In this document: in pieces, positions 2,275 through 64,000 of the stretch | Numbering within the stretch: the first letter of the stretch is position 1 | Layout of the letters: every line of letters starts with the position of its first letter | Assembly (NCBI GenBank): GCA_947561395.2 | Contig: OX387193.1 | Coordinates: 33,616,255 to 33,680,254, forward strand | DNA: 64,000 nt | Direction of reading: 5' to 3' | Source of the DNA: Buxus sempervirens | Lineage: Eukaryota > Streptophyta > Magnoliopsida > Buxales > Buxaceae | The notes under the pieces: model-generated | Database searches by the model: none | What the model saw: the letters and a program-made list of their open reading frames with translations, nothing else | What the model was told of the DNA's origin: nothing | Made by a program: the position numbers and the translations under genes

Positions 2275-2338
2275 CGTGCATGCATGTGTTGCTTACTGAG
2301 ACATTCGTCTCACAGTTGCTTTACTTCTTATTTTTTAG
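2275..2338 (+). other. Predicted 3' splice module in LTR-P
   Basis: The order is GCATGCATG, then TTGCTTACTGAGA, then CATTCGTCTCAC, then a pyrimidine-rich run ending TTTTTTAG at 2338. This resembles a branch point, a pyrimidine tract and an acceptor AG. The same module lies at 20931-20998, 22951-23010, 27636-27712 (minus), 32783-32854 and, in Q, 2902-2963. Splicing is inferred, not shown. Confidence 0.5.
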
Positions 2339-2712: not shown

Positions 2713-3366
2713 TAAACACCCTAAATAACAAAGTGATAAGAATAAATGTATGATTGTTTATTCATAATTGAATTGTACACCTAAGCACAGATTTGCACTA
2801 TATGTCTTGCACTGAATTGTTGACACTTTAACTAGTATTTCAACTACCCGCATATCATGGTTTCTTCGGAATGATATTAGCCTAAACTATGTTTTTACCG
2901 AACATGCATGTGTTGCTTACCGAGACATTCATCTCATAAGTTGTTTTATTGTTTTGCTTTCAGAGCCGTCGACGTCCGGTGTGAAGGACCAGATTGGGGA
3001 CAGAGGAAAGGACAAGGCACCGGGGTATAGAGAGGAGGATTTTTACCGACCTACTTAGGACTTTATTTTCTTGTACATGATAGTCATATATTTTTGGACC
3101 TGTAAACCTTATAACTGAGAGGAGTGATTAGAATCCATCATTTTGTACTAGCCAAGTAGTTGTGTAAATAACTTTGTAGTCCACCACAGAATTTGTCACT
3201 TTCTTATACACTCTTATTATGCACATGCATCAACTGTATATCACTTCCACTCGTATTAGGAAAAATTTTAAATTATCCTTACTTTTACTAGGTCGAAAGA
3301 CCAGCCCGTGACGACCGGGGACAGGTGACTGCCTTGGAGAGGCAGACTTGGTTCCGGGTCGTTACA
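2713..3366 (+). mobile_element. LTR-Q: 3' end of a second Tekay/Del-like LTR
   Basis: This is a diverged repeat of 2100-2712. Both have GCATGCATGTGTTGCTTAC, both have the word GACGTCCGGTGTG after the AG, and both end in a GGTTCCGNGTCGTNACA-type terminus (here at 3366). The simplest reading is that P inserted into Q and this is Q's right flank; a tandem arrangement is the alternative. Q in turn sits inside the Athila LTR, whose sequence resumes at 3367. The acceptor-like CAG is at 2961-2963. Confidence 0.55.
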
Positions 3367-16428: not shown

Positions 16429-17337
16429 TAATTTGGAGAAAAAGCAACTTAATAAGTGTTTAGGTAATATTTAGGAATTAAGTATTTATTATACATGAAA
16501 ATTAGTTAGAAGGAGGAGTTTAGATAGCGAGGGGCTTAATTGGTATAGTACTAGGAGAGAATTAGAAGGTGGAGAAAAAGTAGGAATTAATTAGAAGGTG
16601 TTTGATCCTAATTAAACCACTCTAAGGTTAGTCTATTTAAAAGAGGATTATTAGGGTTAGTTAAGGACTTTTCCTACTCAGGATAAATAGAAGAGAAATG
16701 GGTGAAAGGAGAGAATTTTTGTGTGGGAAAGAATTAGAGAAAAGAGAGGGAAGAAGAGAAGAGGGGGCTGCTACAGAGATGTCCGAATAGCCACCATCAA
16801 ACCACGATTGGGAAAGATCCAGCCGTTGGATCGACCCTAAATTTGGAGGTTTGGTTCACTACTGGTAAAACTATAATCTGAACGGTGGAGATCTGGTTTG
16901 GTGAACTCTAAGTGGGTACGAAAAATAGCAGGAGTTGGAACAGAATCGGGATTTCAAGAAAGAATGGATTTAGCGTATTGAGGCAAGTAGCAATCCATTG
17001 AAACCTGAAGGAACTGCATGGTTTTGATGTTTTTGATTTATGTAAAATCCCAAATTTTTAATGAAATTAAAAATTATTGGTTTAGTAATTAAATTAAGGT
17101 TAATTAGTAATTTTATACAGGAAGGAGACCAAGGAGTTTAACCGGGGACTTTTGGTCGAACCGGATGGGATAATTAATCAATTAAATATGATTAATGGCT
17201 GGAAATTTTTATTGGTTGGTTAGGAAGATTGATGATGTGGCAAGTAAAGGATTCTGGCAAACTAAGTGTGCTGGTGCAGAAATTTAGTGGAGTGTAGTTG
17301 CAAGGGATCGTGATTTAAGTTGCATGAAAGCGGCAAC

Positions 17338-17344
17338 TATAAAA
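17338..17344 (+). promoter_or_regulatory. TATA box of LTR-C
   Basis: TATAAAA lies about 300 bp into the LTR, preceding a purine-rich leader (GAGAAGAAGGAGAG) as in the other LTRs of the group. Confidence 0.55.
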
Positions 17345-18139
17345 GGGTGAAGGATTTCAGTTTCTGGTTTTGTTTTGGCATTGAGCGATTGAAGTGGAGA
17401 TTTCAGAAAGAGAGGAGAAGAAGGAGAGTGAGGGTTCTAAGTCAAATCTGGAGGTTGAAGCTGATCAAAGAGATTTTGTGGTGGCCGATTTGTTGCTGTT
17501 CAAGAGGAGTGAAGTTCAATTGCAGCAGAACCTGTAGTCGTCCAGGAGCTGCAAATCAGAGCAGCTGTGGTTCAAATTCAGAGGAGTTAGCTGGAGTTGG
17601 ATATAATTAGTGGAATTCTACTCCAACTTGATGAAGAACCTCAGATCTGAATAGATCTGATCTGGAAATGGAAATCTTTGCCGAGAAGTGTTGATCCGTT
17701 GGTTTTGAAGGAAGAATTCAGAACCTCCTTTGATCAATTGAAGGTTCAGTGGCTACAATCCAAAAATTAGAGGTAAGTAGCACAAATTTCGTTTTGACTT
17801 GAATGGTTTAAATTGGAAGTTGGTGTAGTTAAGATGAGCATGCAGCCGAACTTTGTTTTTGCTGATTTTGGTGCCTAGATCGGTTTATGCATGAGATGTG
17901 TTCGATTTAATTTCAAGGCAGATCTGAAGTTTAATTAAATGATTCCGATTTTGCTGAATATGATATAATAGACAAAATTAAGATGTAGTGCATTTTAGCA
18001 TTAGAAATTATTTTGCTGTAGATGAGTTTTTGTTTTGAAGAACATGCATGAACGACAAGATAAGTGTTATTGATGTGATGACTAAATTAAGTTGTGATGG
18101 TTGCTTAAGGTATGCATAGAGTCTTAGGATTATTTTAGA

Positions 18140-18700
18140 GATGATTCGCATGCAAAGCCTGCACTAGCTGTAATGGAGAAGGAGAGATTGGCCTTGGCGC
18201 TAAGCATCTCTGGTTGGTGCCAACCTTTTCAAAGATCAGCACCAGATCAAATTTCTCCAGCTATATGTGGTGGTGCAGCAGGGGGGGGGGGGGGGTTTTA
18301 TTATATAAGTAAGCCAATAACAGTAGCTTAGTTTCGTTGTAATAGGTACTTGTAATACATTATGAAAATGGGTAGGTTAAATTGCTAGTTCTGGAGGAAA
18401 AGTGAGTGTGTGCTGAGTGCTGCCTACCTCTCTAGAGGTTGGCGCCCAGCTCTTTGCAGCTCATTTTTAGCCTCTTGAAAACTTCTGTTTAATCATACCT
18501 GGAGAGCTATTTTGGTGGCTTACTTAGGTATAAATTTAAGTATTTGGATGAAGAGGTAATAGCCTCATTACACCACACAAATGGGTTTTGGCATTGAGTG
18601 CTTCTGACCTCTTTGAGGTCAGCGCAAGTTAACAAAATCAAGGAAGGCTGGCTGGTGCTAACCTCTCCAGGTTAGCCTTGGTCAGTGCCAGCTCAATAGC
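18140..18700. repeat. GC-rich repeated-word cluster in LTR-C
   Basis: Words such as TTGGCGCTAAGC, GGTTGGTGCCAACC, GGTTGGCGCCCAGC and GGTGCTAACC..GGTTAGCC recur in direct and inverted form. Equivalent clusters with other words sit at comparable distance from the donor in LTRs A, D, E, F and R. Confidence 0.6.
18281..18295. repeat. Poly-G tract of 15
   Basis: An uninterrupted run of 15 G lies inside the putative intron of LTR-C. Confidence 0.9.
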
Positions 18701-21700
18701 AGCCTATATTTTGCTCTTGAAATCTTCTGATTTATCACACTTTGGAAGCAACTTGGGGAATTTTCTTATGGGACTTAATAAAGGGTAAATTGATTTACTT
18801 TGGAACAACATGAAGTGCTAAAAAGGAAGCAAAACTAAGGTTTAAACTAATGAAACCAGCTTAATTCTTCAGCTCTCTTCTATTTGTTTTAAAGAATTTT
18901 ATTGCTATCTTAGTTTGGCGCTAATGTAGGGATTACTTAAGGAAGTTAATGGGGAGCAAATTGGCTTACCTTGAATAGACAAGAGGTGCTGGAAATGGAA
19001 TGCATGAACAATGTTGCTGAACTTAGTGGGAAGAAGGGCATGGACAGCTAAGGCTGTAGGAGGTGTTGGAGTGTTTTGATTAAATCCAAATAAGATTACT
19101 TATGTTATTTAGAGGGTTAAGATTACTTATGTTATTTATGGTGCCTAGGATTGCTGAGGAGTCTCCCAACAGCCTATTTTTCTATATTTTTGTAATTGCT
19201 TCTAATTTTCATTGGGGAAAACATTTAGGGAAGTTATTTAGAAGTTATTAACGAACTTTTAAAGGATGTGATACATTGGACATAGGATCATAAGTGAGGT
19301 ATTAATTAGGGAAATCAGAATATGGTAAGTAATGGTGTTGTGTTCTTAGTGGAAAGAATTTACGTAAGTGAACTATAGTAAATTCATTTATTATGCAGGT
19401 TATATCTAGACTTAAGTAGAGGGAATCTAAGGGAATAAGAGTGAAGAAGGTGGTGCTGAAATCAAAGTATAAAGAAGGGTTTTTATCTTATAAGAATTGT
19501 CAAATAGGTGATATAGGATATAAGGTTCTAAGGCATTGAAAATCTAAAGTAAAAATCTATATAAAACTTTCTGGTAAGGTTCAGATTTTAATTGGGAATC
19601 TTTTGAAGAAAAGTAAAGAAACACTAAAACAGTTGAGTTAAGTTAGAAGTGGAAATCAGCAAAACAATTTGAAATGAATTAGACTTGTTAAGGGGTTGCA
19701 TAGAAGATTTGTATTAAATAGAGGAAATTAGGTATAGCTTCTATAAGAAAGCTACAGTTTTGGGCCTAAAATAAGTAATACAAGACTGAATTCAATGATG
19801 GAGTTAAATTCTGGTCTTTAACATTCGAATTACCAGTTTAGCCGAAATAGACAATTTTACTAAATTTAGAACTAAAAGGATATTATTACGTATAAGGTAA
19901 GCTATTGTTGGAGAACAAAAAGCAGTAATTCAAGTATGAACCTAATATCAGTATGTAAACTCCGGTTTTAACACCCGAAAATGTCGGTTTAACTTAGAAA
20001 CATCACTTTTACATAAATGTCTCTCAAAGGGATTTTATGGAAATAAATGAAAGGAGCTTGTAAAACTTATTATTGGAATAAAGATGTGTCTATAAATTCT
20101 GATTTTGTGAATAAGGTTGAACCTTGAAGTATTAGCACTGGATTTCACCTCGGATTTGACGGGATTGTCATGATTATGAAATTTTTTTGCATTGCACCAG
20201 TTTTATGCGGATTCTACGGAAAGAGAATTTTAAATTGAATATGAATGATTGGTTTTCCTCCATGTACTTGGAGAGACAGTTGTGATGCCCATGTACTTGG
20301 GTAGCTCTGATACCTCCGTGTACTCGGGGATGCCCCATGTACTCGGGATGATATGATTGAGATTGAGATGAGTTGTGCTTGCTAGATTTCACGATTGGTT
20401 TTGGTGTTAGAATCTAGTGGGCATAGCTCGATATGGATCCATGTTAGGAGCTAGTTAGTGGAAGGGATTGTTCTTTGCTAGTTGTAATACTTTGTTCACG
20501 CACGCGTTTCCACTGTGTACTCAGTGAGGCCTGATCGTGTACTCGGCTGGCTGCGGCTATCCCTCATTTTATCGTATACTTGGACTGTGACTGGATCAGT
20601 ACATGCCAACCCATCACTGTACTGGGTGGGTTCTCCCGCAATAAGACGATGATCGTGTACTCGACATATCGCACCTAAGCCGGGAGGTGGCATAGTGAAC
20701 ACTGGCATTACCTAGTTAAAGACAGTCTTATTTCATGAGTCCTACGACGACTTATCAACTGTTGATTTGAGGTTACATATATGTTCGTTGAACTGGATTA
20801 TTCTTGTATCTCATAATGTTTGATTGGATTATTGTTGAATTACTCGGATTATTCGGAACTGAGGTGTTATCGCTGCTATTGCATGATTTACAACTATACC
20901 ATATTTTAGAACTGATGAACTGTTTTTGAGCATGCATGCGCTGCTTACTGGGATATTCGTATCTCATTCTTTTCCGTTTTTATTTGTTTTGTTTTCAGAT
21001 TCTTGTAAGGACGACACCAGCGGGTATATGCTTGGTTCATGTGAGGTAGTCTCGATTATAGTGTCTTATTGTTGAGTTTGGGTTATAGTGCACTCTGATT
21101 ATCCATATATTGTTTCATTCATGTTTTCCTTCACTCTGATATTGCTATCCTGGGTTATATATTAACCTTCGGAGATAAGTTACGGTTTTCTCTACCTAAC
21201 TTGAATCCGGGGCGTTACAATTTATCTATGATTGTTTTTATTAGCCGAAAAATTATTTTCATGGATCCATTAGGTTTTTATTGACGAGTTTTCTTGATTT
21301 TGAAGAAAAGTAGACAAGTGTTGGTGATTTATAGATTTGATTTTGTAGATGATCATAGAATGGTAATTAATTGACACAAATTAATCTAGGGTGTCGTAGG
21401 TATGATTTAGAATACTAAGGAATTAATTTAGACCAATTAAACTCAAAGAAATAGCACAAAAATCCGAAATTGGTGAAATTGACACAATCTGCCGGAATTG
21501 TACGGGCGCCTAGGCGACCTGTGCTGGGCGACCTATGTATAAAAGTTACGGAATTTAGGATTTTTAAATATGAATAAATGTTTAATAATTTTTCTAGTAA
21601 TTTGATCATTGTAACACCTTTATAAGAGTCAAATTGAAGCATAATAAATGATTAAATTTAATTTGGTATTAATATAAATAAATAAGTTCAATGAATGTAA

Positions 21701-23332
21701 ATGGGTGTATAATAGGTCGAGATTTTTGGAAATAGTAATGTGAACTAGGTTAAGCTTATATTTGGAGATTTAAAACATCTCTCAAACTTTATTGCAGGTC
21801 TGTGGAATGTGTTAGAATTTAAAAATAACAGAAAATATAAAAGTTAAAACCTTAGGTTGTAAGTATAGAAACTTGGATCTTAATTAGAGGATAATTAAGG
21901 AAATTTTAGGCAAAGACATAAAGAACCTTGCTTGTGCTAAAAAATATGAAAATTTATCTGTCTGGAACCTTTATAATTCTGTTTTCCATTGTGCTTATAT
22001 TCATGAATTTTATTTTGGATATATTTTGGAAATTGAAGGGATTTTCTCGAAAAGGTTTGATTTAAGAATCTTTTGGGTCTGGGACATGGATTTCACATGG
22101 AATTGGATATCTTGGCTAATATTATGGTATTTGGATTATGGTATGGTGATTGTTCTTTTTTATCATGGTTGAGTGATACTGCTTCCTGTGGTTGAGTTGA
22201 TACTAACTTTTACAACAGAGATGGGTAATTTTCTGTTGTAGAGATGTGTAATCCTTTACGGTAAAAGTGTGTATGCCTCCTAAAGTAGAAGTGTGTGTCC
22301 TCCCGTGCTAAAGATGCAATTTCTACGTGTTTTATTAATTTATGGTATGTGTCTAATGGGCATAGCTGAATATGGAACCATAGAATAAGCTAGGTAGCGA
22401 AGGGGTATTTATTTTGGGTTGTGTATTACCATTTGCGAGCGCGCTTCCTTTGCAAGTTAGTTCGCTCTGGAAGGTCCCATGTCTATAGGGTCATTTCGAG
22501 CCTCACTAGTGATTCCTGTACATGCAGATCAGCGGCCATCTCCATGTATTGATTTAGGGGCTGCATGCTGGTTGTTCATGCCAACTCTATGAGTTCGAGT
22601 GCAATAGTAGCTTTGCCTCAGAATAATATTCGGCTTTGAGTGTCATAGTAGCTTTGCCCATAAGACGCACGGTGGCATAGCATTGAAGAGTGTCTTCTCA
22701 AAGTCTTATCTTTCTTTGTGAGTCCTGCGAGGTCACATGTGGTTTCGTTTATGTTTTATCGATTTTGCTGAAATCTTAACATATCTTGCTTCACATGAGT
22801 TGTTTTATCGTTAAATTGACGTTGTTTTATTGTCTCCAATTATTGCTTATGTGTTGGTTTATTGTCTCAACTTTTGGTTTGATTTGAATTACTTGCCTTT
22901 GCCTTGATTAATCGTATACCTCATGACTACTTAAATTAGACCATTTTTATTGCATGCACCTGCTACTTGCTGAGATGTATGTCTCACTCTTGTTTTCACC
23001 TATTTTTCAGGTTTGCTTGGAGAGATCCTCAAGATGGGGTAGAATATTTATGGGTAGTAATGTAATTGTTATTATAGTTCACATCCTTAATAAATAGATT
23101 TTCATTGTAAATTAATTTGGATTAAAGTGAATAAAATTGCCATGTTTCCCAACATACTCTGATGTAGATAATTAATCTTAAAAATTCCTTGTTAATTTTA
23201 GATTGTTCTGGCCCCATTTTTATAGTAGCACTCCGGGTTTGGTTGTTGAATCGGATTCAGGCATCGGATTCGAGTCGGGTGCCTGTTTTGCATTGACTCG
23301 AGTTCGGGGCGTTACATCAGCTGTCCTGGCAG

Positions 23333-23655
23333 TTATAGATTCAGCTGTGGAAGTGCCGGTGGTGACTGTTCTGGCGGGATTGGCAATGGTTGAGGAGCTG
23401 GTTGTTGTGGTTGTGGTGTCGGCAGTTGCAACGGAGGTACTGGTTGCTGTGGCGGAGGTACCGGCAGTTGTTGTTGCGGTTGTACAAGTTGCTGTGGTGA
23501 TTGTAGTCTTTCCATTTGCTGAATCATGGCGGCCATCATGGCTGACATGTTGGCCACTTGCTGGTTAAGACTAGCGATCATTGAGTGGTCTTCCAGTCTC
23601 TCCAGCTCCTGAGGTGGTTGTGGAGGTAGTGTCTGCTCCTCAGTGGGATCCATCT
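23333..23655 (-). pseudogene. gag: Ogre-B gag N-terminal part
   Basis: Minus-strand MDPTEEQTL is followed by LNQQVANMSAMMAAMIQQME and a proline/glutamine-rich stretch. This is the counterpart of the Ogre-A Gag N-terminus (QQKMDSMGAVIQELM, then a proline-rich run). Only the N-terminal part is recognisable, next to the right end of LTR-D. Fossil. Confidence 0.65.
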
Positions 23656-23844
23656 GAAGCCCCCTTCCGGAACACAAAAGGTACGAGCTATGATTCACAA
23701 TCTTCAAATCCTTGAGGAATAAAAAAGGAGACAAGTTAGTGTAAAGAATTCGTACTGTACTGAGACATGGTTCATGTTAATGTAGGTTGTTATGATTTTC
23801 TGATTTCAATTTAGTAGTTATTCAACGACCAAGGGAGATTATTT

Positions 23845-24140
23845 TTTGGATTGCTAATCTCTTTTAGTCGCCATTCGGAGACAAGGGGAGAGTCCCTGAG
23901 CTGATCACTTTTTAGTCGTCATTCGGAGACAAGGAGAGAGTCCCTGAGCTGATCACTTTTTAGTCGTCATTCGGAGACAAGGAGAGAGTCCTTGGATCTC
24001 TTTTTAGTTGCCATTCGGAGACAAGGGGAGAGTCCCTGGAATTGATCTCTTTTTCGTCGCCATTTGGAGACAAGGGGAGAGTCCCTGAAATTGATATCTT
24101 TTTAGTTGCCATTCGGAGACAAGGGGAGAGTCCCTGGATT
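23845..24140 (-). repeat. Hairpin minisatellite of Ogre-B
   Basis: About six units of 45-60 bp contain, on the plus strand, TTTTTAGTCGCCATTCGGAG followed by ACAAGGGGAGAGTCCCTG. On the element strand each unit has GTCTCC..GGCGAC around a GAAT loop, a small hairpin just before ACTAAAA. It lies between leader and gag, as does the corresponding array in Ogre-A (40550-41095), and shares the CTCTCCC and CGACTAAAA words. Confidence 0.8.
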
Positions 24141-25958
24141 GGGTTTAAGAAACTACAAGAGTTGATTTTTGAAGGTTAGGTTGAAACCATTTGATTTTGA
24201 ACTTATTTGGTCGGGTTGACCTTTCTTCTGATTTGAACTCATTTTTGAGAACTTTGTTTAAGCTTTATTCAATTTAATTGATGGCCATCAGCAAGGAATG
24301 GACACTCCTTGATTTTCCTAATTCATTATTTTGGCTGAGTTGCAACCATTTCATCTTGTTAAACTTGTCTTTCCTTGATTAGGATGAAGTTGGTTAAGGC
24401 ATGGAGAGTTAAAACCATTTATTGCCCTAAGGCAATTTTGATGTACAACCGAAGGCAGTTTTGATCTTGGAAATTTTTGCACATTCTTTTCTTTGAAAAT
24501 GGTTTGACCAAACATGTTTGTACAAATGATCTTGAAGTGCATGCACTCATTGCATGAAGAGGTGTACACACAATTAAAGCAAAGGTTAAGTGATATTACC
24601 ATTCGGCAGATCTATGTCGATAGACAGATGTCAAAAACTCACCAAAAGGTGTGTGCACAGTCCTAAAAAAGGTTGGTGCCTGGCAAGGCACGACTCTTAG
24701 ACATACTTGTGTATGGAAGCACATCTGAGTCCTGATCAGCTTCTCTTTCATCTGTTCTTTCGTTTGCCTTTGATTTTAGGTGTCAAACCAAAGGAATTCA
24801 CAACTTGCCAGCGAAGGCAAAAATTACATGATATTTACAAAACTGGAAAAGAATGCAATCCTAGGGTTGTTGGGAACCGTAAGAAAGGATTTTAGCGAAG
24901 GTAGGCTGAAAAAGACCTAATTCTAGGGTTTCCCAATTTCTGCTCAGATTTGGCATGCTTTTATCTGCTTGTCTCATCTGGCTAGCTTTCATCTACTCAA
25001 AAGGCCAACTTGGACTTAGGGTGCTTTCAACGGACTCAATGGGTTGAGGCCCATGGCTCACAGGACTCAATGCATGGATCCGGGGTGGTTCCCCTGATCA
25101 AAGTTAGGTTAACTCTAAGGCAGCCCACGATTTGGGGTTCACTCAATTTGATGCAAAAGGCAGGGATTGCTGCCCCTGATGGACTCTTGAGTTTTAGATG
25201 GATTTTACTTCTCTTGTATCGTCATTCAAGCACATTCAGCATTCAAGGTTTGTCAGACGTAATAGGTGGGAAAAGATAACTAGCCCGAGACATACGCCTA
25301 CAAGGGTTTGGACCAAGTACTAGACCCTCGAGTACCACGGTAAGAAACCAGTGGCGCTATAGGAATCCAGAAACTTGAGGAGATGGGTTTACCATGCTTT
25401 CCCCGGCAAGCCACAGGAGCGTGAGGCTAATACCATCCCAAAAATTTGTTTATAGGAATCAAAAGAGTGGCTGCTAGAGGGGTCTAGGTTTTGATAAAGG
25501 AGAGATCCAATAACTACACATATCTCTTGTTAGTTCGGATCATTCACGTTGTCTCCCTCATGCATGTCACCCTACGCAGTTTTTATTAAAGCGGTAAAAC
25601 ATCCACGGTGTGGTGGGTGCCCGTGTGTGCAATTGGGTGGAGTGCTGTGTCTAACTGGGTGAGTTTGATCTAGATATTGACTGGTGAAAGGGTTTTTTAT
25701 TGCTTTATATAGTAGAGTGAAGAATTGGCACGCAAAACGATGTTTTGTGAGAGTTCCCAGGTAATTGGATGGGTCACAGCGGTCCCGTTTAAAATCCAAT
25801 TTCCTTAGGCAATTATCTTGTCCTTCATGATAGAACTCCTCAGAATACGTGTCAACGTGTATTCTACATTTTACTAAGGTGAGACAGGAAAGATTCCCTA
25901 AATCAGTCTATATCCCTCTTAAGTTGACTCTTCTTAACCAAGGTTCGACTCAGTTGAG
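24141..25958 (-). mobile_element. Ogre-B untranslated leader
   Basis: It matches the Ogre-A leader at several points in reverse. Examples are the TTTCCCCGGCAAGCCACAGG block (25398-25420, Ogre-A near 37110-37130), AGACATACTTGTGTATG (24700, Ogre-A near 37835), and the fall of AAAAATTAC..GCGAAGGC (24800-24830, Ogre-A near 37720-37750). There is no counterpart of Ogre-A ORF1 and no other gene is seen. Confidence 0.65.
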
Positions 25959-25961
25959 AAG

Positions 25962-25979
25962 TCCCCAGTAGAGTTGCCA
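25962..25979 (-). other. Ogre-B primer-binding site
   Basis: On the minus strand TGGCAACTCTACTGGGGA lies 3 bases from the LTR end at 25983. It corresponds to the Ogre-A site at 36519-36536 and to the tRNA-Arg-type primer described for Ogre elements. It fixes the orientation of Ogre-B. Confidence 0.75.
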
Positions 25980-25982
25980 GGC

Positions 25983-26829
25983 TGTGCGTGCGTCTGAACG
26001 GCGGGGCGCACGTAGGCTTGAACTCGAGGCGCACCGGGTTGCGTGTCCCTCTTTTGGGACATTTGGGATTTTGGAATCGCCACTGCCTGATGGGGTGCAG
26101 GCAGATACTTGGGTGCCTAGGTTATCTATTAGACGATTTGCGGCTTGAGATTCTGTGTAAGCTCTCAGTTACGGTCCAGGGAAGTCCGAAAATACCCCGG
26201 TCCTCCCCGTCGAGTGACGGGTCCCACGGGTCTCCCTGGTTTGAATCAACTTTATTTTTGGTCTATTCACCCAATTCCTACTCAGATATGCAATACCTTA
26301 AGTCTGTGGGGACCACCTGAATGGTATGGGTCCCTTTTATTTGATTTTATCTTTGTTATTTAAGGTGATGCGGGTCTGGAGTAAGCTCCATTGGAAGGCC
26401 CACGAGATACCAAGTTGGGCTTAAGTCAAGCCCAAGTCCCATTTGGGGTTATGTTGGGCAAACCCCTTTTTGGGATTGGTTTATTTGATTTGGAGGTTAT
26501 TTAACATGCAAAATAATTATTGATGGGTTTAGATTTTTAAACAGGCCTATTGGGCTTTGAAGGAGGCCTAAAGACTTAACCAAATTGCCCTTGAAGCCCA
26601 ACCTTGGAATGGGCTTGGTGTTAGGCAGGACGGGTGTAGGCCCCGTTGGAAGGTCCACAATGAGGTCTTATTGGGCCTGGGCGGGCCCAAGTCTCATGAG
26701 AGGGCCTCAGGTTGCCCAAAGGCCCAAATGGATTAATGTTACTTGATTAGATTAGATTAAACTTGCTTAAACCTGAGAAAACAGACTTTTAATTTCACTG
26801 GGGCCTGCCCACAAATACAGAGCAGACAG
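25983..26829 (-). mobile_element. Ogre-B 5' LTR, partial
   Basis: It is collinear with 10677 to about 11490 of the 3' LTR (same GGACATTTGGGATTTTGG, GGGTGCAGGCAGA and GGCCCAAATGGATTAATG blocks). It then passes into one palindromic word (GCCTGCCC..GCAGACAGGCC) and stops, well short of full LTR length. What follows is the inverted terminus at 26830-26877. Confidence 0.75.
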
Positions 26830-26877
26830 GCCTCGAGTTCAAGCCTACGTACGCTCCGTCGTTCGGACGCGCGCACA
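26830..26877 (+). repeat. Inverted copy of the Ogre-B LTR terminus
   Basis: The 48 bases are the reverse complement of the LTR 3' end seen at 10677-10725 and 25983-26030 (GCCTCGAGTTCAAGCCTACG, CGTTCGGACGCGCGCACA). The element therefore shows the same U5 end at both outer edges, and GTACC lies directly outside each. Confidence 0.85.
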
Positions 26878-26882
26878 GTACC

Positions 26883-27257
26883 TCTCAAGTGTACTTAAAA
26901 GTATATCCTAAGAATACCCAAATAATTTCTCAAGAATACCCAAGGTACCTCTTATGTGTACCTAAAGTATCTCTTAAGTGTACCCAAAGTACACCCAAGT
27001 ATTACCCAAGGTCCCACCAAAGTATACCTAAAGTATACCCAAGTATTACCCAAGGTACCACCAAAGTATACCTAAAGTACATCCATGTATTACCCAAGGT
27101 ATCACCCAAGTATTACTTAAAGTACCCTCCAATTATACCTATGGTACCCCACTTGTATTGCCTAAGGTACCTCATTTGTATAACTAAAGTACTCCTCTTT
27201 TATATAATTAAGGTACCCCCTTGTATAACTAAGGTACACCCTTTATATAATTAAGGT
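26883..27257 (+). repeat. LTR-E minisatellite, middle segment
   Basis: Units such as AAAGTATACCCAAGTATTAC and CTAAGGTACCCC continue the array from 10500-10676. It breaks at 27257 with the insertion of LTR-A. Confidence 0.85.
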
Positions 27258-27635
27258 TGTCACGACCCGAAACCAAGTCTGCCCCTCCAAGGCACAACCC
27301 GTCCCAGACTGTGGCAAGTGGGCCAATTACTCGTTAAAAATATGAAGGATTTAAAACTTTTTCCTAACAAGTGCAAGTGATAAAGCAGTTCATAAATGTG
27401 CATATCAAAGAGTGTTTATATATACAAGAAAGGTAATAAGACACGAGAGTTATTTACAAAACGACAGGTGACTATATCACACCTCTCAATCAGAAGGATT
27501 TACAAGTCCAAAATAAACTATACATGTACAAATAAAAATAAACCTAAGGCCTATCGAAATCTGCCTCTATATACCCAAAGGCTTTCTCTTTGCCTCTATC
27601 CCCAGCCCAGTCCTTCACACCGGATGTCGATGGAT

Positions 27636-29983
27636 CTGAAAAATAAGAAATAAAGCAACTGTGAGACGAATGTCTCAGTAAGCAACACATGCATGCACGA
27701 GAAAACACAGTTTAGGCATATATCAATCAATCAAACCATGACATGCGGCTATTTGAAATCATAAGCAAATTAACATAGTTCAGTGCCATACAAGTTGGTG
27801 CATGCTTGTGCATCAGTGTACAGTTAATCAATTTACTACAACCTTTCATTCAATCTCACTAATCGTTATGTAAGAGGTCTAGTGTTATACTACTCAAAAT
27901 TCTCATCTAGCATCACCGATTACACGCGGTGGCTAGGCATCTACGCCGATTACTCATCACATAGGCATCTAGTACGCCAATCACACATGTCATATAAATA
28001 TCCACAGATGATTACCCCAAAGGTAAATGGAGGGGTATTACAATGTAAACAATATATTAACATCAACACATATCCATCTAGCTTCATCGATTACACATGG
28101 TGGCTAGGCATCTACACCGATTACACATGACGTAGGCATCCATTGCTGATTACACATAGCACATGGGCATCGGCCACCGATTACAAATGGTGCTGGAACA
28201 ATATATATATACATCCATTGCTGATTACACATAGCGAATGGGCATCGGCCACCGATTACACATGGTGCCGGAACAATATATATATACATCCATTGCTGAT
28301 TACACATAGCGAATAGGCATCGGCCACCAATTACACATGGTGCCGGAATGATACTCATCCATTGCTGATTACACATAGCAAATGGGCATCGGCCACCGAT
28401 TACACATGGTGCCGGAATGATACTGTATAGCATGAACAGTAACAATGGCACTTGGCCATGGAGACTGAGTATAAACAATCCTATTTATATAACATGGACA
28501 ATAGTAATGCTACTTCAAATATCATGTGGATCATGCCTTCAAGCATGCCAGATTTCAAAGGTAGCCTGTGGCCTTACCCGAGTCATTCTTGGACCAAGCC
28601 CTTATTCATTACTCATGGATTCTGGGCCATTGCCCTCCATTCACTATCAATAACCATGGGCCATTGCTCTTTCATTTATTGAATCATTATCCATGTGCCA
28701 CAGCCCTTTCCCTCTCATATTACAAGTAACGGGCCAATGCCCTTGAGGTCATGCAAACCAATATGGGCCAATGACCTTCCTATCTCATAATTTAATACGG
28801 GCTAATGCCCTCCATATCTTGTGCGAAATTCCAGGCTGAAGCCCATCACATCTAGTGGGGTGTACTCACTATAAAGGTCAATGGTAAAGGGTTGGCTTTA
28901 TCGGAAATTCCACTTTTCAGGACTCATTTGGGCAACCTATGCCTTAGTTCTCTGGTACTTGTACGACTTGGTCTTGGTTCTTGATTTCTATCTCTAAAGG
29001 TTAATTATATTGTACTCGAAGTGGTGGAAACAAGTTATCCTAATTCTATAGTAATCTGGGACAGAAACTTTCGATAAAGCCTTCCTCGGTAACACATACC
29101 CAAAATCCTTGTTATTAGGAATCTTGAGATACTTCTAGTTGGGACACTTTCTAGACATGTAATTCTAGCTTATACATAGGTTGGATTTAAGTAAAAACAC
29201 TTGGTGTTCGATCTGGGTAAAACCTCATTTTTGGAGATCATCTACATTTCGTGACCCATCTTGGCAATCTATGCCCCAATCCTCTTGAAACTTATGCAAC
29301 TTGGGTTTGGTCATTGTATTCAACTTCCATAGGTTATTTGGAAGGTATTTGAAGCTGTGGAATCAATTTATCCCACTTCTATAAAAATCTGGAACATAAA
29401 CTCTCTATGAGACCTATTCTAGCAAAACGTACCCAAAATCTTTACTATTTGGAATTTGGTGACAACTCCAGTTGGAACACTCCCTAGGCTCTTAAATCTC
29501 ACTCATACATGGGTTGGATTCACACAAAATCAATCCTTAGTTCAATCTGGACAAAAATTTGGAAAATTGGGAAAACAGGGTAGGTCGCTCGAGCCTGCTT
29601 CGAGTGGCCAAAGACTTACTCTCGGGTTCCTCTATTAAGGCAATTCGCTAGAATAGTAGCTCGAGCGGCCATGACTTAAATCGCTACCTAAAACCACCGC
29701 CTGATGCCGCACTCAAGCGACTGCTCGGGCGGCCTAGGGTTTTTGACAGTTCCGAAATCCGAACTTTTGGGATTTTGGGGTTTTCTCAAATCTCACTCGT
29801 TTTGGGTGTTTTTGGGCTCTAAATTGCTCCTAGCATGTGTAGTTATATACTACCAACAAAACCCACAAGAAAAACTCCTCCTATTTGTACAAATAAAACA
29901 TTTTACATCTCAACCCTAACACATACATTCCACATAAGAAAATGGCCAAAATTGCAAAGATAGGTTGGGGTGGTATTGCTTAC
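27636..29983 (-). other. Predicted intron within LTR-A
   Basis: The minus-strand donor is GCAAGAG/GTAAGCAATA at 29983. The acceptor is TTATTTTTCAG ending 27636, preceded by TTGCTTACTGAGACATTCGT. The length is about 2.35 kb. The exon after the acceptor, ATCCATCGACATCCGGTGTG, is conserved with P and Q. No transcript evidence is available. Confidence 0.5.
28137..28425 (-). repeat. Tandem repeat of 75/69 bp in LTR-A
   Basis: There are four units starting at 28137, 28212, 28287 and 28356 with CATCCATTGCTGATTACACA and GGCATCGGCCACCRATTACA. Partial copies run left to about 27900. The first three carry an ATATATATATA segment that gives the 75-bp period. The open minus-strand frame across it is a by-product of the repeat. 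Confidence 0.9.
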
Positions 29984-30568
29984 CTCTTGCAAACACTTAA
30001 GCAAGTCTTCTTGCTTCCTTTGCAACCCACAAACAGCTCCTTTGCCTCCTTTTGGTTGCCGTTCACAAGTATCCACCAAGGAAACCCAAACGAAAATGGC
30101 TTCCTTGGGTTCTCCTATTTCCTTTCTTGTTGGTAAGGATCTCTTCTCCAAGGGGGAACGTGATGGGGAGAAAATGAAGGGAAGATGAAGAAGATTTGGG
30201 GAAAGGAGACAGGGACGAAGGAGAGAAAGGGAGAGGGGTTGGGTGTTTTTTGGGTTTGTGCAAATGGGGTATACGAATGGGGCATTTGGGGCTCTTTTAC
30301 ACTTAAACAAATATCCTCCCACCAGACATTAGATTTACGAGTTTGCCACTGCTCCCTATTTACACATAACCAACCACACTTAGCTATATTTTCTCACAAT
30401 GGGAAACCTTATTCGACAGAGTAGAGGTTGTTCACCTTCACAAGTCACTGACAAGCCAGGGCTTAGCCTCCCGACTGGCTTCAGGCTTGAGCTTATCTAG
30501 CTTCATCTACACATCACACTCACTAGTTAGGTTGTGCTAGGGATATTGGAACAGGGTTTCACAAATGT

Positions 30569-30690
30569 ACCCCAAAGCATCCCTAAAGTATACCCCTTGA
30601 AATAACTAAGGAAAACCCCTTGAAACACCAAGGTACCCCCTCAAATAACGCTAAGGTACCTCCTAGTATGCCTTAGGTACCCCCTAAGGG
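30569..30690 (+). repeat. LTR-E minisatellite, last segment
   Basis: The end of the array (CTAAAGTATACCCC, CTAAGGTACCTCC) lies about 60 bp before the LTR-E TATA box. Confidence 0.8.
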
Positions 30691-30747
30691 TTTTAGTTAA
30701 ATAAAAGTTTTGTTTAGGGGCAGATTTGAAAGGCCAAAAGTTGCGCA

Positions 30748-30754
30748 TATAAAA
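30748..30754 (+). promoter_or_regulatory. TATA box of LTR-E
   Basis: TATAAAA is in GCGCATATAAAAGGATGCC, followed by a purine-rich leader (GAAGAAGAGTGGGAG, GGGGAAGGAGAAGGAGTGG). Together with the U3 minisatellite this marks the promoter of the LTR. Confidence 0.65.
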
Positions 30755-30914
30755 GGATGCCCTAACTAAAATATCAAGTGTTTTGAACCCCTTTTCCTTG
30801 TCTTGGACGTATAGAACAAGAAGAAGAGTGGGAGCTTGCTTGAAAGCTTCAAGAAGAAGGGGAAGGAGAAGGAGTGGAGAGCTTGAAAAGAAGTTGTGAT
30901 TTTCTATTAAACAA

Positions 30915-32854
30915 GTAAGTAGCAAACCCTTAAAAACAAAATGTATTACAAAAATTCGTATTCTCTCTCTAGGGTTTGATTTATTTTGAAGAAATAATCT
31001 TGCATGTTGGTATTTGCTTCTAAAACTCGTAGGTTTTGGTTGTATAAGACTCTTGTTTAGTTTTTTATTGATTTGCTTTGGGTTTGCAACATAGATTGAT
31101 CATATTTCAGGTTTGGGTTTGAGTTTTGTATTTTGAATGAGGTTTCATGTGTTAGAGTCGTGTTCATGTGGATTTGTGATGAATCTTTGTTTTGGACGGT
31201 GTTTTTAAGTATGTTGGGATGATTTATGATCATCCCATTTGGTGTTGGAAAGGTTAGGAATGATTTGTATGAGTTTTGTGTTGAAAATAACCTAAAATAC
31301 TTCAAAACCCGACCTAGCGATTAATCCTGAAAATGGGCGATTAATCCTGAGCCAAAACCCCCAAAATCAATTTATGTTAAGGACAGGATTAGTCTCGGCG
31401 ATTAATCGCGAATCTGGATGCCTAAACGTCCGTTAGGATTAGGTTGAATACCCGAATGTCAGCCCTGTTTTTAATCTGGACGCCCGAACGTCTATTAGGA
31501 TTAGGTTGAACACCCGAACGTCAGCCCTGTTTTTGACAGTTCTTCTCCTTTTTCTTCTCCAACTATTTCCCAAACAACCTAAGCGTCCATTTACTTAAGT
31601 CTTTACATGTAAATAAGGTTTTACCCCTCATTTGGAACTATTAAAAATACTCCCAAGACCCAATTCCTAATGAATAAAAAGTCAACTTTCCAGTTCATGC
31701 CTAAATTTCTAGTTTTGCTTGATTTTCATCAAAAACCACTTTTTGAGCTTGATACCCAAATGAGTGATTTAGAAGCCCATAAAATTCTAGAAATTTTTTT
31801 AACCCTTCATTAGACTACAATCCAAATTTAAGCCCGAAACTCCTTGTAGATTTATTTAGAAAAATCATATATCCCAAAAGTCAACGTTTTTAACCAGACT
31901 TATATTTTCAAGGTCCAAAACTTTTTGTCTTGGAATCCATTGATTTTTGGTATGGTGTCTTAATTGGGAATCCTAAGTCTATCCCATTCATCAAATACAT
32001 ATTTTGAGGATTTTATGGTATTCGTTTTGATTGATTTGAATTTGTGAAAGCAAGATTGAAAAAATCTTATGTGATTTAATAAGGCTCTTGGCCTACGGTT
32101 TTATTGGTGGTGGATAGGGAATTCCACTTGGCTTTGGTTGATTTGGTAGTGGATGGGGAATTCCACTTGGCATGTGTTATGATCTAGCGTGGATGGGGAA
32201 TTCCACTTTGCTTTGGTTTGAGCACTGGTTTTACTCATAGATTTTAATGGTTTGATTTGAGTTGTGAGTCGTTTAATTGGACATTGTTCTTAGTGTGGAA
32301 CTACAGTGAGTCTAGTTTGTCTGTTGGTGTTGGCTTGTTAGCTTTAATGTCCTTGTCCATCTAGCTTTCCACTGTGGGGAATAAGTGAGGCCTTCTCGGG
32401 GCACAGGGGTGCTGTGGCAACCACCTGCCGCGAGGAACCGCTGGAGTTCTTGTGATTTATTGGGCAGTGTATGGGGTATTCCACTTGGCCTTGATTATTG
32501 CTTTGGTTTTCACTTGCCAGCCCATACTTGGGTGCTTCGCTTGCTGAGATGTCCCTAGCTAAGCTTCTCTCTGTAAGTCGTGTAGGTGGCAAATGGACTG
32601 TAGTCATTACTCTAATTTAGAAACATGCTAACCCATGAGTCCTAACATGACATACTTACTGTATTTGATTGCTTTTATGGAACTGATTTCATGTGTTATT
32701 CGATTGAGATATTTTGACTTGAGATTTATACTTTATGTTTGTGATTATTATCATGATGTTATAAAATTGCATAAGCTTTTTCTACACATGCAGTTTGCTG
32801 CTTACTAGGATTTTAAGTCTCACGCGTGTCTTATTTTACTGGATTTGTTTTTAG
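30915..32854 (+). other. Predicted intron within LTR-E
   Basis: The donor is AACAA/GTAAGTAGCAAACC at 30915, 167 bases after the TATA box. The acceptor is GGATTTGTTTTTAG ending 32854, with GCTGCTTACTAGG upstream. GC words (GGCGATTAATCCTG repeated, CCCGAACGTC) lie at 31313-31530. The same ACGTCC word is also in U3 at 10380-10415. No transcript evidence is available. Confidence 0.5.
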
Positions 32855-33305
32855 ATCCTCTTGGTGAACCACATACTGGGGCAAAGATTGAGGGTGAGCT
32901 TGAATACAGACCCAATGACTACTACTACTGCCCATAGTAGGATTCTCTTTATGATTTTGTATTTTGTTTTGGAGAATTGTAAATGGGATGTAAATATTCT
33001 TTTTGGATTTATACTCTTGGGAGATATCTTTTGTATATTCTGTATATTTTGGAGGGAACTTGTGAACGTTTAGTTGCTTTAGTTGTATATTGTTCACACA
33101 GATATCATGTTTTGGAGATTATAATATAGGTGATCTTTTGCTGGATGGAAAATTTTTATTCCATGCTTTTTTAGCTTATGCACTTTGAGGATTACTTTGT
33201 AATTGCCCAGGTTGATGATGTTAATTAGGTTCTTTTGGGCCCATAAGTAGGTCTCGGGGACGGGTCGGTGTCGTGATAGGGCAGACCCAGTTTTGGGGCG
33301 CTACA

Positions 33306-33545: not shown

Positions 33546-34106
33546 TGTAAGCACCTCATTTTTGCGCTCCCAAAAAGCCAGAAAATGTAAAAAACCCGGC
33601 CAAGAAGTCAAACCCTGAAGGGGTGAAAAGTTGACCTTTAAATCAGATAAAATTTGGCCACCTTGGTCTATCCCGTTGGATAAAGAATCCCGACACGGTT
33701 CCAACGCAACTGGGTTTGCAGGAATCAGAGTCCGGATAAAGGTTCTAAGGGCAGTCAAACTTGAGGGAAAGCCAAGAGTTGACTTTTCCTCGGAATCCGT
33801 GCCAAGTACTTAGCCCCATGTCATTAAATAGAGGGCTCCGATACGAGTTTAACACAATTGAGTTTGCTCGAATCGGAGTTCGGATGAGGGAGATATGATC
33901 TGTCAAAGTTTCCGAGTAGCAAAAGCCGGAAACTGCACACGTGGCGCAAGAACTGCACACGTGGCAGCCAACGCAGCAAAATATCTCAGGGACTAAATCT
34001 TAAATATAAAAATTTCGTACGGGCGATCCGTAGATATCAAAAAGGGTCAAATCGGTCGAATCGGTCGAATCAGTCAAGTCGAAGGGCAAATCCGTAATTT
34101 TTCGAT

Positions 34107-34356: not shown

Positions 34357-34365
34357 TAAAATTTC

Positions 34366-61957: not shown

Positions 61958-64000
61958 TGTAACGCCCCGGATCTGTGTTGTTCAATAAAGATATAACACG
62001 TCTCACGGAGGTTAGGCAAGGATCGTTAATCAATTATGATCGCTGGATAATCATCTAACTATAACCTGTCAGAGCGCACAAATTGATTCATCCAAGAATG
62101 TAACATTTAGAATTTAACTAGAATCATATGGTTCAACTCCAAATAGACTTTAATACACCTCAAACCTTCAAATTACTCAAATTCGGAACAAGATAACCTA
62201 CAAGTCTAAGGAAGGTAATTGTAATCTTCCTCCCTATAAGCCTCAGCAGGATCTACCCCAGTAGTCGCCTCACCACGAGTATTTGAAAATCAAAACAAAA
62301 CAACAGAGTGAGATACGAATATCTCAGCAAGTAGCACATGCATGCAGAAATAGTTAATCACAGTTCAAAGCTATGCATCGATAAACATTTCGTACAATTA
62401 AACAACTAACATCAATTTCAAGTTCAAACCAAAACCCATTTCATCAGTCAAATCACATCTCAGTTAAGTACGGCAACACATCGATTGGTCAATGTCATGA
62501 CTATTGTTTGGTTGATAAATTAAACATGCCAAGTAGACACTCCACACCTCCATGTACACAGTTCCGGCCTACTCAGGGTTTCGGAAACTCTGAAATGACG
62601 GCCTACTCAGGGTTTCGTCATCCAATGCAGGCCTACTCCCCGGGTTTCTGCATTGACAACCAGGCCTACTCAGGGTGTCTGGCTGCTCTACACCGGTCGT
62701 GGCAACACACAAGGCCATGCAATTCTAACAACCAACAATAACATTACATTACTAAGCTTAAACATCTGGATCCAGGACAAGCTAAACCAAAACAGTAAAA
62801 CATCGTATAATCTCAATTCCAACATCAAAGTAAAACCATTCATTCCACATCATGTATAACTCATCACAGTTCATCACCTGTCTCTCTGGACCAAGCAGTA
62901 TCTCAATACTTTCAGTATTTTCTCATTTCCGCAAACCATGCCATTTGAATACAAAACACAGTTATTTATACCAAGACAATACATTCAGAATTTTCCAAAC
63001 AAGTGAAACCAGAAGTCAATAATTTCTCGATCAAAACTGTGTACAAATTCAAGGATAAAACAAACTAGGAACTCCTACTATTTTGGTATCCAGCACAACA
63101 CATACAATTAACCTAATCTCAAACTTAGAAACCTTTAAGAATTTGCCACTAGAATTTCCTCTAGAAATTTCATAAGTAATGCAGGTTCTAAGGTTCCCAA
63201 ACAAGTGATTGATTAAATGGTATCATCCTCAAGTCATCAAAATTACTCTTGGTTCAGTCGGAAATCAAATTCGGCAAGTATAATTGGGTATGCGCTCACT
63301 TCCTGAAGTGAGCGCCAGGTGAGCGCCAGTCGGCGGATAGGAAACAGGCTAAAATCGACTATGCGCTCACTCGACGCTAAGTGAGCGCGAGCTGAGCGAG
63401 AGAAGGGCGCGAGAAGGGCGCGGGATAGGCACGAGATAGGCGCATCTAATTTAAGTGGGCGCGAGCTCGGCGCCAGGTCAATATTTCTATGCGCCTACTT
63501 CCTGAAGTGGGCACAAGTGGGCGCCAAGTGAGCGGATACCCACTGCGATTTTCAAGTCTCTGTAATTTCGAGATCTCCATGTCTGGCTGATTTGTTTCGG
63601 TCTGTAATTGTTCCAATACACTCCCAATGTTCCCAGAATACTTCCCAACCAGTTTTGGATTTAATCTAAACACCTTTAATTTCAAATTGAATTTCAATCT
63701 CACGTTCGGACTCATGGTATTCCAGAAAACCAGAAAACTCACAATACACCAATGCATTTCAAAATACATCACGAATAAACTAAAACCTCAGTTGTAAAAC
63801 AGTGCTACTCACCCGTATACGCTTATCCCAGAATAAAAGCTTACTCCACAACCGGCCGATCACGATTTCCGGCTGCGCGTGAGGATGCAAATGTAGCCGA
63901 ACGGATCCTCTGCTCGCGAGAGAAATAACCCACCGAACTCCGACTCCAATAACCTCCTAGTAGCTCTTGCGATTCTTGTTCTTCACAGGCATAACCCTAA
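61958..64000 (-). mobile_element. LTR-F: Tekay/Del-like LTR, reverse strand, runs off the window
   Basis: Plus-strand TGTAACGCCCCGG at 61958 is the 3' terminus of a reverse LTR inserted in the Helitron Rep exon. GAGGC (61953-61957) is the expected target copy. The module GCTACTTGCTGAGATATTCG is present in reverse at 62306-62350, although a clear acceptor AG is not. Short repeats of GGCCTACTCAGGGTTTCG lie at 62565-62680. A palindromic cluster is at 63290-63535, and a donor-like CGG/GTGAGTAGCACT at 63812. It could be solo or the end of a full element. Confidence 0.78.
63290..63535. repeat. GCGCTCAC palindrome cluster in LTR-F
   Basis: GCGCTCACTTCCTGAAGTGAGCGC (shown by its arms GCGCTCAC and GTGAGCGC) has a perfect 8-bp stem. 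GCGCTCAC..GTGAGCGC recurs at 63363-63388, with variants GCGCCTAC..GTGGGC at about 63491-63513 and many direct GTGAGCGC copies between. It lies about 280-520 bases inside the putative LTR intron. Confidence 0.85.

Follow-up and report, generated by a model that had tools for sequence, protein, structure and literature searches.

Long LTRs of Buxus sempervirens may each hold an intron with a 5' splice site lockable by RNA pairing next to the branch-site hairpin

In the retrotransposons Ogre, BARE1, EVADE and CRR, part of the element RNA is spliced and part stays whole. The Ogre intron lies between ORFs, the BARE1 and EVADE introns lie in the gag-pol frame, and CRR splicing removes rt; the cited sections place none of these introns in an LTR (PMC12786077, PMC3735527, PMC6317226). 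Foamy viruses carry their major splice donor in R, ahead of the poly(A) signal (PMC3694450). In HIV-1, according to the cited passages, the major splice donor in the packaging signal is sequestered by base pairing in genome-destined RNA (PMC4576207), and in the plant THIC TPP riboswitch a 5' splice site is likewise described as blocked by pairing within the same RNA (PMC10226581).

The mapped LTRs lie in a stretch of 64,000 nucleotides of Buxus sempervirens (the window). We propose, with a probability of about 0.6, that each long LTR holds a U2-type intron whose donor can be closed off by a helix next to the branch-site hairpin. As in foamy viruses, the donor would lie inside the LTR, hence at both ends of the element, and RNA structure is presumed to govern the access of U1. 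The foamy virus structure, in an animal virus, is local, whereas the partner in the Buxus LTRs lies 1.5-4 kb off, beside the branch site, and as far as the cited text goes only the plant LTRs hold both donor and acceptor (PMC3694450). The HIV-1 pairing concerns a leader RNA with no LTR-internal intron described in the cited passages, and its partner is not beside a branch site (PMC4576207); the riboswitch, in the section cited, is ligand-controlled and acts in a gene 3'UTR intron (PMC10226581). A search of the literature, covering open-licence papers, found no description of an intron inside a plant LTR. The mapped parts are the following.

17040..21219, forward: solo LTR A17, about 4.18 kb, nested in LTR E (genome-copy homology and flanks)
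17338..17347, forward: A17 TATA-like box (sequence)
17773..17784, forward: A17 5' splice site word GTAAGTAGCACA, paired arm 1 (word scan, alignment, complement ranking)
20937..20948, forward: A17 anti-donor word TGCGCTGCTTAC, paired arm 2 (first among 3693 complements of arm 1)
20949..20966, forward: A17 hairpin, with a candidate branch A at 20966 (CUCAU)
20967..20998, forward: A17 pyrimidine tract and AG (top 3' splice site among 231 AGs, crude score)
about 30566..33304, forward: LTR C30 (genome copies; 5' boundary approximate)
30915..30926, forward: C30 5' splice site word GTAAGTAGCAAA
32794..32805, forward: C30 anti-donor word TTTGCTGCTTAC (rank 1 of 2636; 12 of 12 pairs, one G.U)
32806..32854, forward: C30 hairpin, pyrimidine tract and AG
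27258..30563, reverse: LTR D27 (genome copies)
29972..29983, reverse: D27 5' splice site word GTAAGCAATACC
27678..27689, reverse: D27 anti-donor word TGTGTTGCTTAC (rank 1 of 2972)
27636..27677, reverse: D27 hairpin, pyrimidine tract and AG
16983..16994, forward: LTR E GC-type donor word GCAAGTAGCAAT, in the left part of the LTR split by A17
22959..23010, forward: LTR E anti-donor word CCTGCTACTTGC, hairpin, tract and AG, in the right part (21220-23316; rank 1 of 2099)
63801..63812, reverse: LTR F donor word GTGAGTAGCACT
62309..62338, reverse: LTR F anti-donor word TGTGCTACTTGC and hairpin (rank 1 of 1858)
2285..2338, forward: LTR P acceptor module, truncated D27-type, donor side not kept
2909..2963, forward: LTR Q acceptor module

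Homology between A17 and its genome copies starts at about 17036-17043 and stops at 21219 in most copies, and the flanks ATTTA/ATTTA resemble a target duplication. Transcription of A17 would start about 30 nt 3' of the TATA-like box. Matching 5-bp flanks are seen by eye in four of the five D27 copies with an available left end (L046, L047, L048 and L051), while those of L049 do not match. Of the 17kb-type copies, 17 have a recognised left end; 14 of these are flanked by an identical 5-bp target duplication, and one more differs by a single base, while the other two have a common purine-rich left flank, GAGGGGAGTA, as expected of a 3' LTR after a polypurine tract. The TG...CA ends and the 5-bp target duplication are those expected for an LTR of a Ty3/gypsy chromovirus of the Tekay/Del type. 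A primer-binding-site pattern, GCGTTACA...TGGTATCAGAGC, occurs at 528 genome places, one of which (C3:37657236-37657257, minus) lies about 220 bp 3' of a 17kb-type exon-2 start, the position expected for a primer binding site. The 46 bp across the LTR start in L021 and L023 match the corresponding border of L053 and L054, both recovered through an SH3_Tf2-1 domain, at 80% identity; the 17kb-type sequences read here are LTRs.

The donor and acceptor modules lie in A17, C30 and D27 where the sequence-only reading had put them, and the junctions that it proposed (17773/20998, 30915/32854 and 29983/27636) have GT...AG ends in the orientation given. The donor-like word that it had noticed in the LTRs is real: GTAAGTAGCA, at one mismatch or fewer, has 10 sites in the window against 3.07 expected. 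The shared acceptor word TGCTTACTGAGA, at two mismatches or fewer, was borne out with 12 sites against 5.26, and for either word 0 of 100 shuffles gave as many. The strength of the observation comes from copies elsewhere in the genome, beyond these window counts. In 18 LTRs of the 17kb type, which span 8 subfamilies and share a median identity of 51%, no 10-mer beyond the first 40 bp is better conserved than GTAAGTAGCA; it ranks 18 of 992 windows, and the 17 better ones all start within 30 bp of the LTR start. The form GTRRGTAGCA, some 700-830 bp into the LTR, is found in 17 of these 18; the eighteenth reads GTAAGTTAGC. The word is kept although the exon side varies among subfamilies.

The expectation that the splice signals would be among the best-conserved columns was tested on 10-base windows. 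In the 17kb type the donor stands at 18 of 992, and the acceptor part is conserved throughout its 951 windows (hairpin rank 12, tract with AG 57, anti-donor word 161). In the 27kb type (7 rows) the acceptor module ranks 32 and the donor 449 of 3301, and in the 30kb type (9 rows) the expectation fails, with the acceptor module at 233 and the donor only at 1987 of 2736. Scored with a donor-site table, the donor is among the best five of 182-375 GT/GC sites in 28 of 38 LTRs, while a crude acceptor score places the acceptor among the best three of 88-292 AGs in all 35 scorable LTRs.

The 30kb-type family preserves the GT poorly. Eight of its members carry the core AAGTAGCAAAC (the window copy and 7 of 10 fetched copies): GTAAGT is present in two of them, and the other six have neither GT nor GC at +1/+2 and still keep the pairing core. 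Across the genome the core occurs at 1599 places, and the first 100 listed, all on contig C1, comprise 62 with GT, 30 with GC and 8 with neither. GC-AG introns favour AG at the exon end; in agreement with this preference, the exon side reads AG at 27 of the 30 GC donors among the matches listed, compared with 5 of the 62 GT donors. The variant GCAAGTAGCA is found in the window (16983) and elsewhere. Some donor words were found by their own pattern. In another family, as in L058 and L059, GTAAGTAGCAC reverse-complements the acceptor module, so that a donor-word match alone proves no donor.

Between the acceptor and the LTR end there are 220-450 bp. The sequence-only reading had taken TGCTTACTGAGA for the branch point, an assignment that we set aside, since with some donors CTTAC in the module is replaced by CTTGC or CTTGT, which leaves no A there (L061 has CUUAG). 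A branch point at CUCA(C/U), at the hairpin end and 23-33 nt before the exon, is more likely. The copy in LTR F has AA at the expected AG position. The GT/GC...AG ends in consensus context, the tract and the putative branch point fit a U2-type intron, with the exception of the 30kb-type subfamily that lacks GT/GC.

The word directly 5' of the acceptor hairpin complements the donor word, which spans +1 to about +12. This complementarity of the two modules is absent from the sequence-only reading. The A17 duplex contains one A.C mismatch and one G.U, and in LTR E the C at donor +2 pairs with a G of the anti-donor word. The anti-donor word is the best complement of the donor in 32 of 39 LTRs and among the top three in 36, out of 1,858-4,740 downstream positions; three of 42 LTRs with a donor word, in which no acceptor was recognised, are left out, and in 9 of the 39 the best of two or three acceptor candidates was used. 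Where there is a single candidate, the proportion is 25 of 30. As an offset control, words taken at 160 other offsets each picked the anti-donor word in 0 of 36-37 LTRs, compared with 30 of 37 at offset 0.

Own partners pair better than swapped ones (11.4 vs 10.5 pairs, permutation p 0.0007) in a comparison of only 8 families; copies within a family are not independent. The difference persists from +6 to +12, outside the U1 consensus (p 0.001), and with Watson-Crick pairs only (p 0.003 for the whole word, 0.009 for +6 to +12). Double changes between families convert U-A to C-G at +2, G-C to A-U at +8 and C-G to A-U at +11; position +6 shows the series U-A/U.G/C-G, and the hairpin has two further double changes. 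The covariation score is 0.270 vs 0.181 ± 0.012 in shuffled data, while two of five covariation measures do not exceed the shuffles (102 of 500 shuffles reach the value for both-side changes, and 346 of 500 that for further pair types). The family donor words retain G at +1 and +5 and purines at +3/+4, with T or C at +2, a set accepted by U1. The complementarity that covers the donor is conserved; it was not found in the L053/L054 type.

Start codons change in frequency at the donor. The 100 nt before it hold 0.44 ATG per group vs 1.58 expected from dinucleotides (15 groups, 8 of them without any ATG), and the sequence after it holds 2.44 vs 2.18 expected (14 groups). Over 330 nt in 16 17kb-type LTRs the counts are 24 vs 101 expected before the donor and 158 vs 155 expected after it; one 17kb-type subfamily shows no depletion in the last 100 nt (6 vs 5.8, three copies). 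The LTR-internal intron put forward by the sequence-only reading is well supported at the sequence level, by donors and acceptors that are mostly the top-scoring sites of their LTRs, donor conservation, ATG depletion ending at the donor and GC-donor exon ends. Its further proposal, that splicing brings gag close to the cap, is not supported, as exon 2 shows no ATG depletion (1.21 vs 1.25 expected in its first 50 nt).

From the TATA positions, the LTR promoter would give a first exon of about 140-400 nt with few start codons, followed by an intron whose length, judged by sequence signals in the copies studied, is about 1.5-4.1 kb. In the RNA, the 5' splice site and the rest of the first 11-12 intron nucleotides would pair with the anti-donor word, which directly adjoins a small hairpin whose 3' arm carries the likely branch point. 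This helix would act as a lock: once transcribed, the anti-donor word would compete with U1 and U6 for the donor and stack on the branch hairpin. Locked RNA would stay unspliced and serve as genome, and RNA reached first by U1 would be spliced to a shorter leader. As each LTR has both arms, the same lock could silence the 3' LTR donor, a role that a different, local structure reportedly plays in foamy viruses.

The cover over the donor could be tuned to another purpose. The same pairing data would be obtained if the helix joined the ends of an unusually long plant intron and, once opened by the spliceosome, aided splicing; as it adjoins the hairpin in a fold modelled with an artificial loop, it would hold the donor near the acceptor. 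We consider this unlikely, as the helix masks GU(AAGU) itself, the site that U1 and U6 require, and a bridge could sit beside it. The pairing might instead act mainly on poly(A)-site choice, with splicing secondary: at the 5' LTR, U1 on the donor would block the LTR poly(A) site, and at the 3' LTR the pairing would keep U1 away so that the site works. The foamy virus donor lies in R with a structure said, in the cited part, to block U1 at the 3' LTR (PMC3694450), and the part after the Buxus acceptor is T-rich (39.8%). A conserved hairpin, tract and AG would then be unnecessary, and we regard this explanation as improbable.

Slightly less probable still is that the arms form a long-range stem that serves the RNA in ribosome shunting, packaging or dimerisation, its likeness to splice sites being incidental. 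It would account for the end of the ATG depletion at the stem, for the 30kb-type subfamily that keeps the stem core without GT, and for the failure to find intron-less copies of the 17kb and 27kb types. The search with the exact 17kb-type exon-2 start gave 0 places with non-T at -5 vs 123 with T, and that for the 27kb type gave two, both GTCAG, single-base variants of the intron end; this result fits an unspliced genome and also no splicing at all. Against such a stem stand the U1-compatible pattern of +1 G, +5 G, purines at +3/+4 and T/C at +2, and the acceptor being a top 3' site. A caulimovirus-type ribosome shunt needs a short upstream ORF ending just before the stem; with so few ATGs in the last 100 nt (0.44 per group), such an ORF is not general, and this candidate was disfavoured. 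Chance, or short words of common ancestry, would agree with the modest window-level counts taken alone, and is very improbable in view of the rank tests, the offset control and the compensatory changes.

Against the lockable intron, an anti-donor word predicted blind in the LTR of a chromodomain element (L053/L054 type) gave no match at C1:12498900-12502500, and the pattern has 592 matches genome-wide vs 845 for its reversed control; the error may lie in the guessed donor, in the strictness of the pattern or, for this element, in the idea itself. A hairpin variant with GAGU/ACUC arms occurs at one place, which is uninformative, and the acceptor module has 0 matches in viral contigs in both scans.

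Such elements need one RNA as both messenger and genome, and LTRs of 2.7-4.2 kb place thousands of ATG-rich bases between cap and gag. If true, a covarying lock in the LTR would explain this dual use and name the exact bases. More tentatively, at slightly less than even odds, the LTRs would represent a widespread plant class with a self-regulated intron, in which a co-evolved long-range lock, wholly within the LTR, determines how much RNA becomes spliced messenger and how much unspliced genome, and solo LTRs also spread as portable promoter-exon-intron-acceptor cassettes. With a lock in the LTR, every solo LTR could bring its promoter, first exon and two splice signals into a new neighbourhood, which would bear on gene annotation and on transposon-driven gene evolution.

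The window (C19:33616255-33680254, in an assembly of 676 Mb and 247 contigs) is crowded with nested LTR elements. The LTRs considered here are the following.

LTRs of the window
LTR A17: 17040-21219, + strand, one of the three main LTRs
LTR C30: about 30566-33304, + strand, one of the three main LTRs
LTR D27: 30563-27258, - strand, one of the three main LTRs
LTR E: divided by A17 into a left part up to 17039 and a right part at 21220-23316
LTR F: ends at 61958, - strand

If the C30 start is right, D27 and C30 lie head to head, with no more than a few bases separating them (30563-30566). A recent element that looks Ogre/Tat-like occupies 33546-53530; its LTRs, at 33660-36515 and 50685-53530, share 99.2% identity, and it holds gag and RT-RNaseH-integrase ORFs. 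Within it, an ORF at 38001-39491 matches DUF7745 / plant mobile domains, a tandem array of roughly 145-bp units lies at 39693-40466 and adjoins a second one (40549-41093), and a 1065-codon open frame (42821-46018) has no Pfam match at E 0.001. Elsewhere, the ORF at 60561-61079 encodes a Helitron helicase-like N-terminal domain.

The sequence-only reading proposed that such LTRs carry an intron of their own, with junctions at 17773/20998, 30915/32854 and 29983/27636. All three lie at these coordinates as GT...AG in the right orientation; judged from them, the LTRs it called D, C and A are probably A17, C30 and D27. In the window, donor and acceptor words occur roughly two to three times as often as in shuffles. 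We took further copies from the genome (20 loci of A17 type, 10 of C30 type, 10 of D27 type and 7 of other donor/acceptor classes); the donor test excluded three A17 loci with an unrecognisable LTR start. The first 1000 bp of the 17 remaining A17-type LTRs and the window copy form eight subfamilies with a median identity of 51%. The A17 donor word ranks 18th of 992 10-base windows and is the best outside windows starting in the first 30 bp. The D27 acceptor module ranks 32nd of 3301 (seven rows). The expectation that the splice modules would be the best-conserved columns is contradicted by the C30 donor, which ranks only 1987th of 2736 (nine rows). The D27 donor ranks 449th and the C30 acceptor module 233rd. 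On the A17 acceptor side, where the last 960 bp are conserved throughout (21 rows), the word before the hairpin, the hairpin and the tract with AG rank 161st, 12th and 57th of 951. The intron side of the A17-type donor is nearly constant (GTRRGTAGCA in 17/18) and the exon side is variable.

The acceptor module consists of a hairpin, a T-rich tract and YAG, in that order. By a crude score, the acceptor is one of the three best of all AGs that follow the donor in 35/35 LTRs with a recognised AG, and the donor, scored with a donor table, ranks fifth or better in 28/38; the ten poor ranks belong to five C30-type members lacking GT, the three LTRs with a GC donor and two with GTGAGT.

The word directly before the hairpin is complementary to the donor word, and is here called the anti-donor word. 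We searched the downstream DNA of each locus for the best 12-base complement of its donor word, using 42 LTRs (18 A17-type, 8 C30-type, 8 D27-type, 6 of other classes, E and F); ten loci whose donor word or LTR start was not recognised by the pattern (L020, L022, L025, L036, L038, L039, L044, L045, L052, L058) were left out. Hairpin and tract identified the acceptor in 39 LTRs, all except L026, L035 and L049. The anti-donor word was the top complement in 32/39 and among the best three in 36/39. The best candidate was used in nine LTRs with two or three acceptor candidates; with a single candidate, the anti-donor word came first in 25/30. In 37 LTRs other than E and F, it was picked in 30 at offset 0, and words taken at any of 160 further offsets near the donor never picked it (0 of 36-37 each). 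The 11-12 bp helix folds stacked on the 5-7 bp hairpin at -17.4 to -23.2 kcal/mol, with an A spacer as artificial loop.

Comparison of eight families, with majority words where several copies exist, supports this pairing.

Donor and anti-donor words by family
A17: donor GTAAGTAGCACA; anti-donor TGTGCTGCTTAC
C30: donor GTAAGTAGCAAA; anti-donor TTTGCTGCTTAC
L063: donor GTAAGTAGCAAA; anti-donor TTTGCTACTTGC
D27: donor GTAAGCAACACC; anti-donor TGTGTTGCTTAC
L059: donor GTAAGTAGCATG; anti-donor TGTGCTACTTAC
GC class (L060-L062): donor GCAAGTAGCAAA; anti-donor TCTGCTACTTGT
E: donor GCAAGTAGCAAT; anti-donor CCTGCTACTTGC
F: donor GTGAGTAGCACT; anti-donor TGTGCTACTTGC

Own pairs outscore swapped pairs (permutation p 0.0007 for +1 to +12, and 0.001 for +6 to +12, mostly beyond the U1 consensus), also with Watson-Crick pairs only (p 0.003 and 0.009). 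Double changes occur at +2, +8 and +11, with two more in the hairpin, and position +6 shows a U-A/U.G/C-G series; in the family words, +1 and +5 are always G and +3/+4 purine, the bases that U1 accepts. Across 28 distinct rows, 92.1% of cells are paired (87.5 +/- 0.7 shuffled, 30-53% slid), the covariation score is 0.270 (0.181 +/- 0.012 shuffled), and 29 cells change on both sides (9.5 +/- 3.9 shuffled). The other two of the five measures are at shuffle level (pairs changed on both sides, 5 vs 3.7; further pair types, 18 vs 18.0). Independent changes are few because rows within a family are related.

In six of the eight C30-type members with the pairing core AAGTAGCAAA, the core is retained and GT at +1/+2 is lost (L033, L035, L037, L040, L041, L042). 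These copies may be dead relatives; alternatively, the core may serve a function other than splicing. Among the first 100 listed of its 1599 places in the genome, all on one contig, 62 have GT, 30 GC and 8 neither; AG precedes 27/30 GC donors and 5/62 GT donors. An exon end in AG is a habit of GC-AG introns, and a few lineages may also be the source of this bias.

The A of CTTAC is ruled out as a general branch point, as CTTGC, CTTGT or CTCGT replaces this motif in L060-L063, E and F. In nearly all LTRs, CUCA(C/U) stands at the end of the hairpin's 3' arm, 23-33 nt upstream of the exon. This is a fair match to the branch-point consensus yUnAy and is our predicted branch point.

Across 16 A17-type LTRs, there are 24 ATGs in the 330 nt upstream of the donor, where dinucleotide counts predict 101, compared with 158 (155 expected) in the 330 nt downstream, 1083 (1123) in the whole intron and 52 (66) in exon 2. 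With one vote for each of 15 groups, the last 100 nt upstream have 0.44 ATG (1.58 expected) and the first 100 nt downstream 2.44 (2.18); one A17 subfamily is an exception, with 6 ATGs (5.8 expected) in the last 100 nt upstream in three copies. Since ATGs are depleted only upstream of the donor, ribosomes seem to see the pre-donor part alone. Grouped counts for exon 2 reveal no overall depletion (1.21 vs 1.25 in the first 50 nt, 0.37 vs 0.74 in the next 50 nt, 1.60 vs 2.03 in the next 100 nt). This speaks against a simple leader of exon 1, exon 2 and gag; possible alternatives are re-initiation, exon 2 as a terminal exon, and a further acceptor beyond the LTR.

Perfect 5-bp duplications flank 14/17 A17-type copies, and one more is off by a single base; these copies are therefore solo LTRs. 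The high solo share, 14/17 copies with a recognised left end, is biased, as the copies (L013-L032) were picked by similarity to the solo LTR of the window. Two of them, L021 and L023, have a purine-rich left flank in common and resemble 3' LTRs. Across 46 bp spanning this LTR border, they show 80% identity to the corresponding border of L053 and L054, which were detected as elements solely through an SH3_Tf2-1 domain. The A17-type LTRs are thus likely, though not proved, to belong to a Tekay/Del chromovirus. The LTRs of L053 and L054 contain a TATA-like box and, 664-666 bp from the LTR start, an AG|GTAGGTTGATC donor. No anti-donor word was found at the place predicted for it in advance, and its pattern has 592 matches genome-wide against 845 for the reversed control; the proposed donor/anti-donor lock is therefore not shown beyond the families listed.

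The HIV-1 donor is hidden by base pairing within the packaging fold (PMC4576207), and in plants a 5' splice site is paired with the THIC riboswitch (PMC10226581). Intron-bearing plant LTR elements include Ogre, BARE1, EVADE, CRR and Bagy2, the last with a spliced env RNA; none is described there with an intron in the LTR (PMC12786077, PMC3735527, PMC6317226), and searches of open-licence papers turned up no plant LTR reported to contain an intron. Reverse transcription of spliced RNA would leave intron-less LTRs. Genome-wide, the exact A17-type exon-2 start is preceded at -5 by the T of the intron side in 123 cases and by another base in 0; in the D27 type the sole two exceptions, a count without a denominator, read GTCAG. 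The absence of intron-less copies in these two types would be expected if the RNA used as genome were always unspliced, for example because the intron holds the packaging signal, or if the intron were never spliced.
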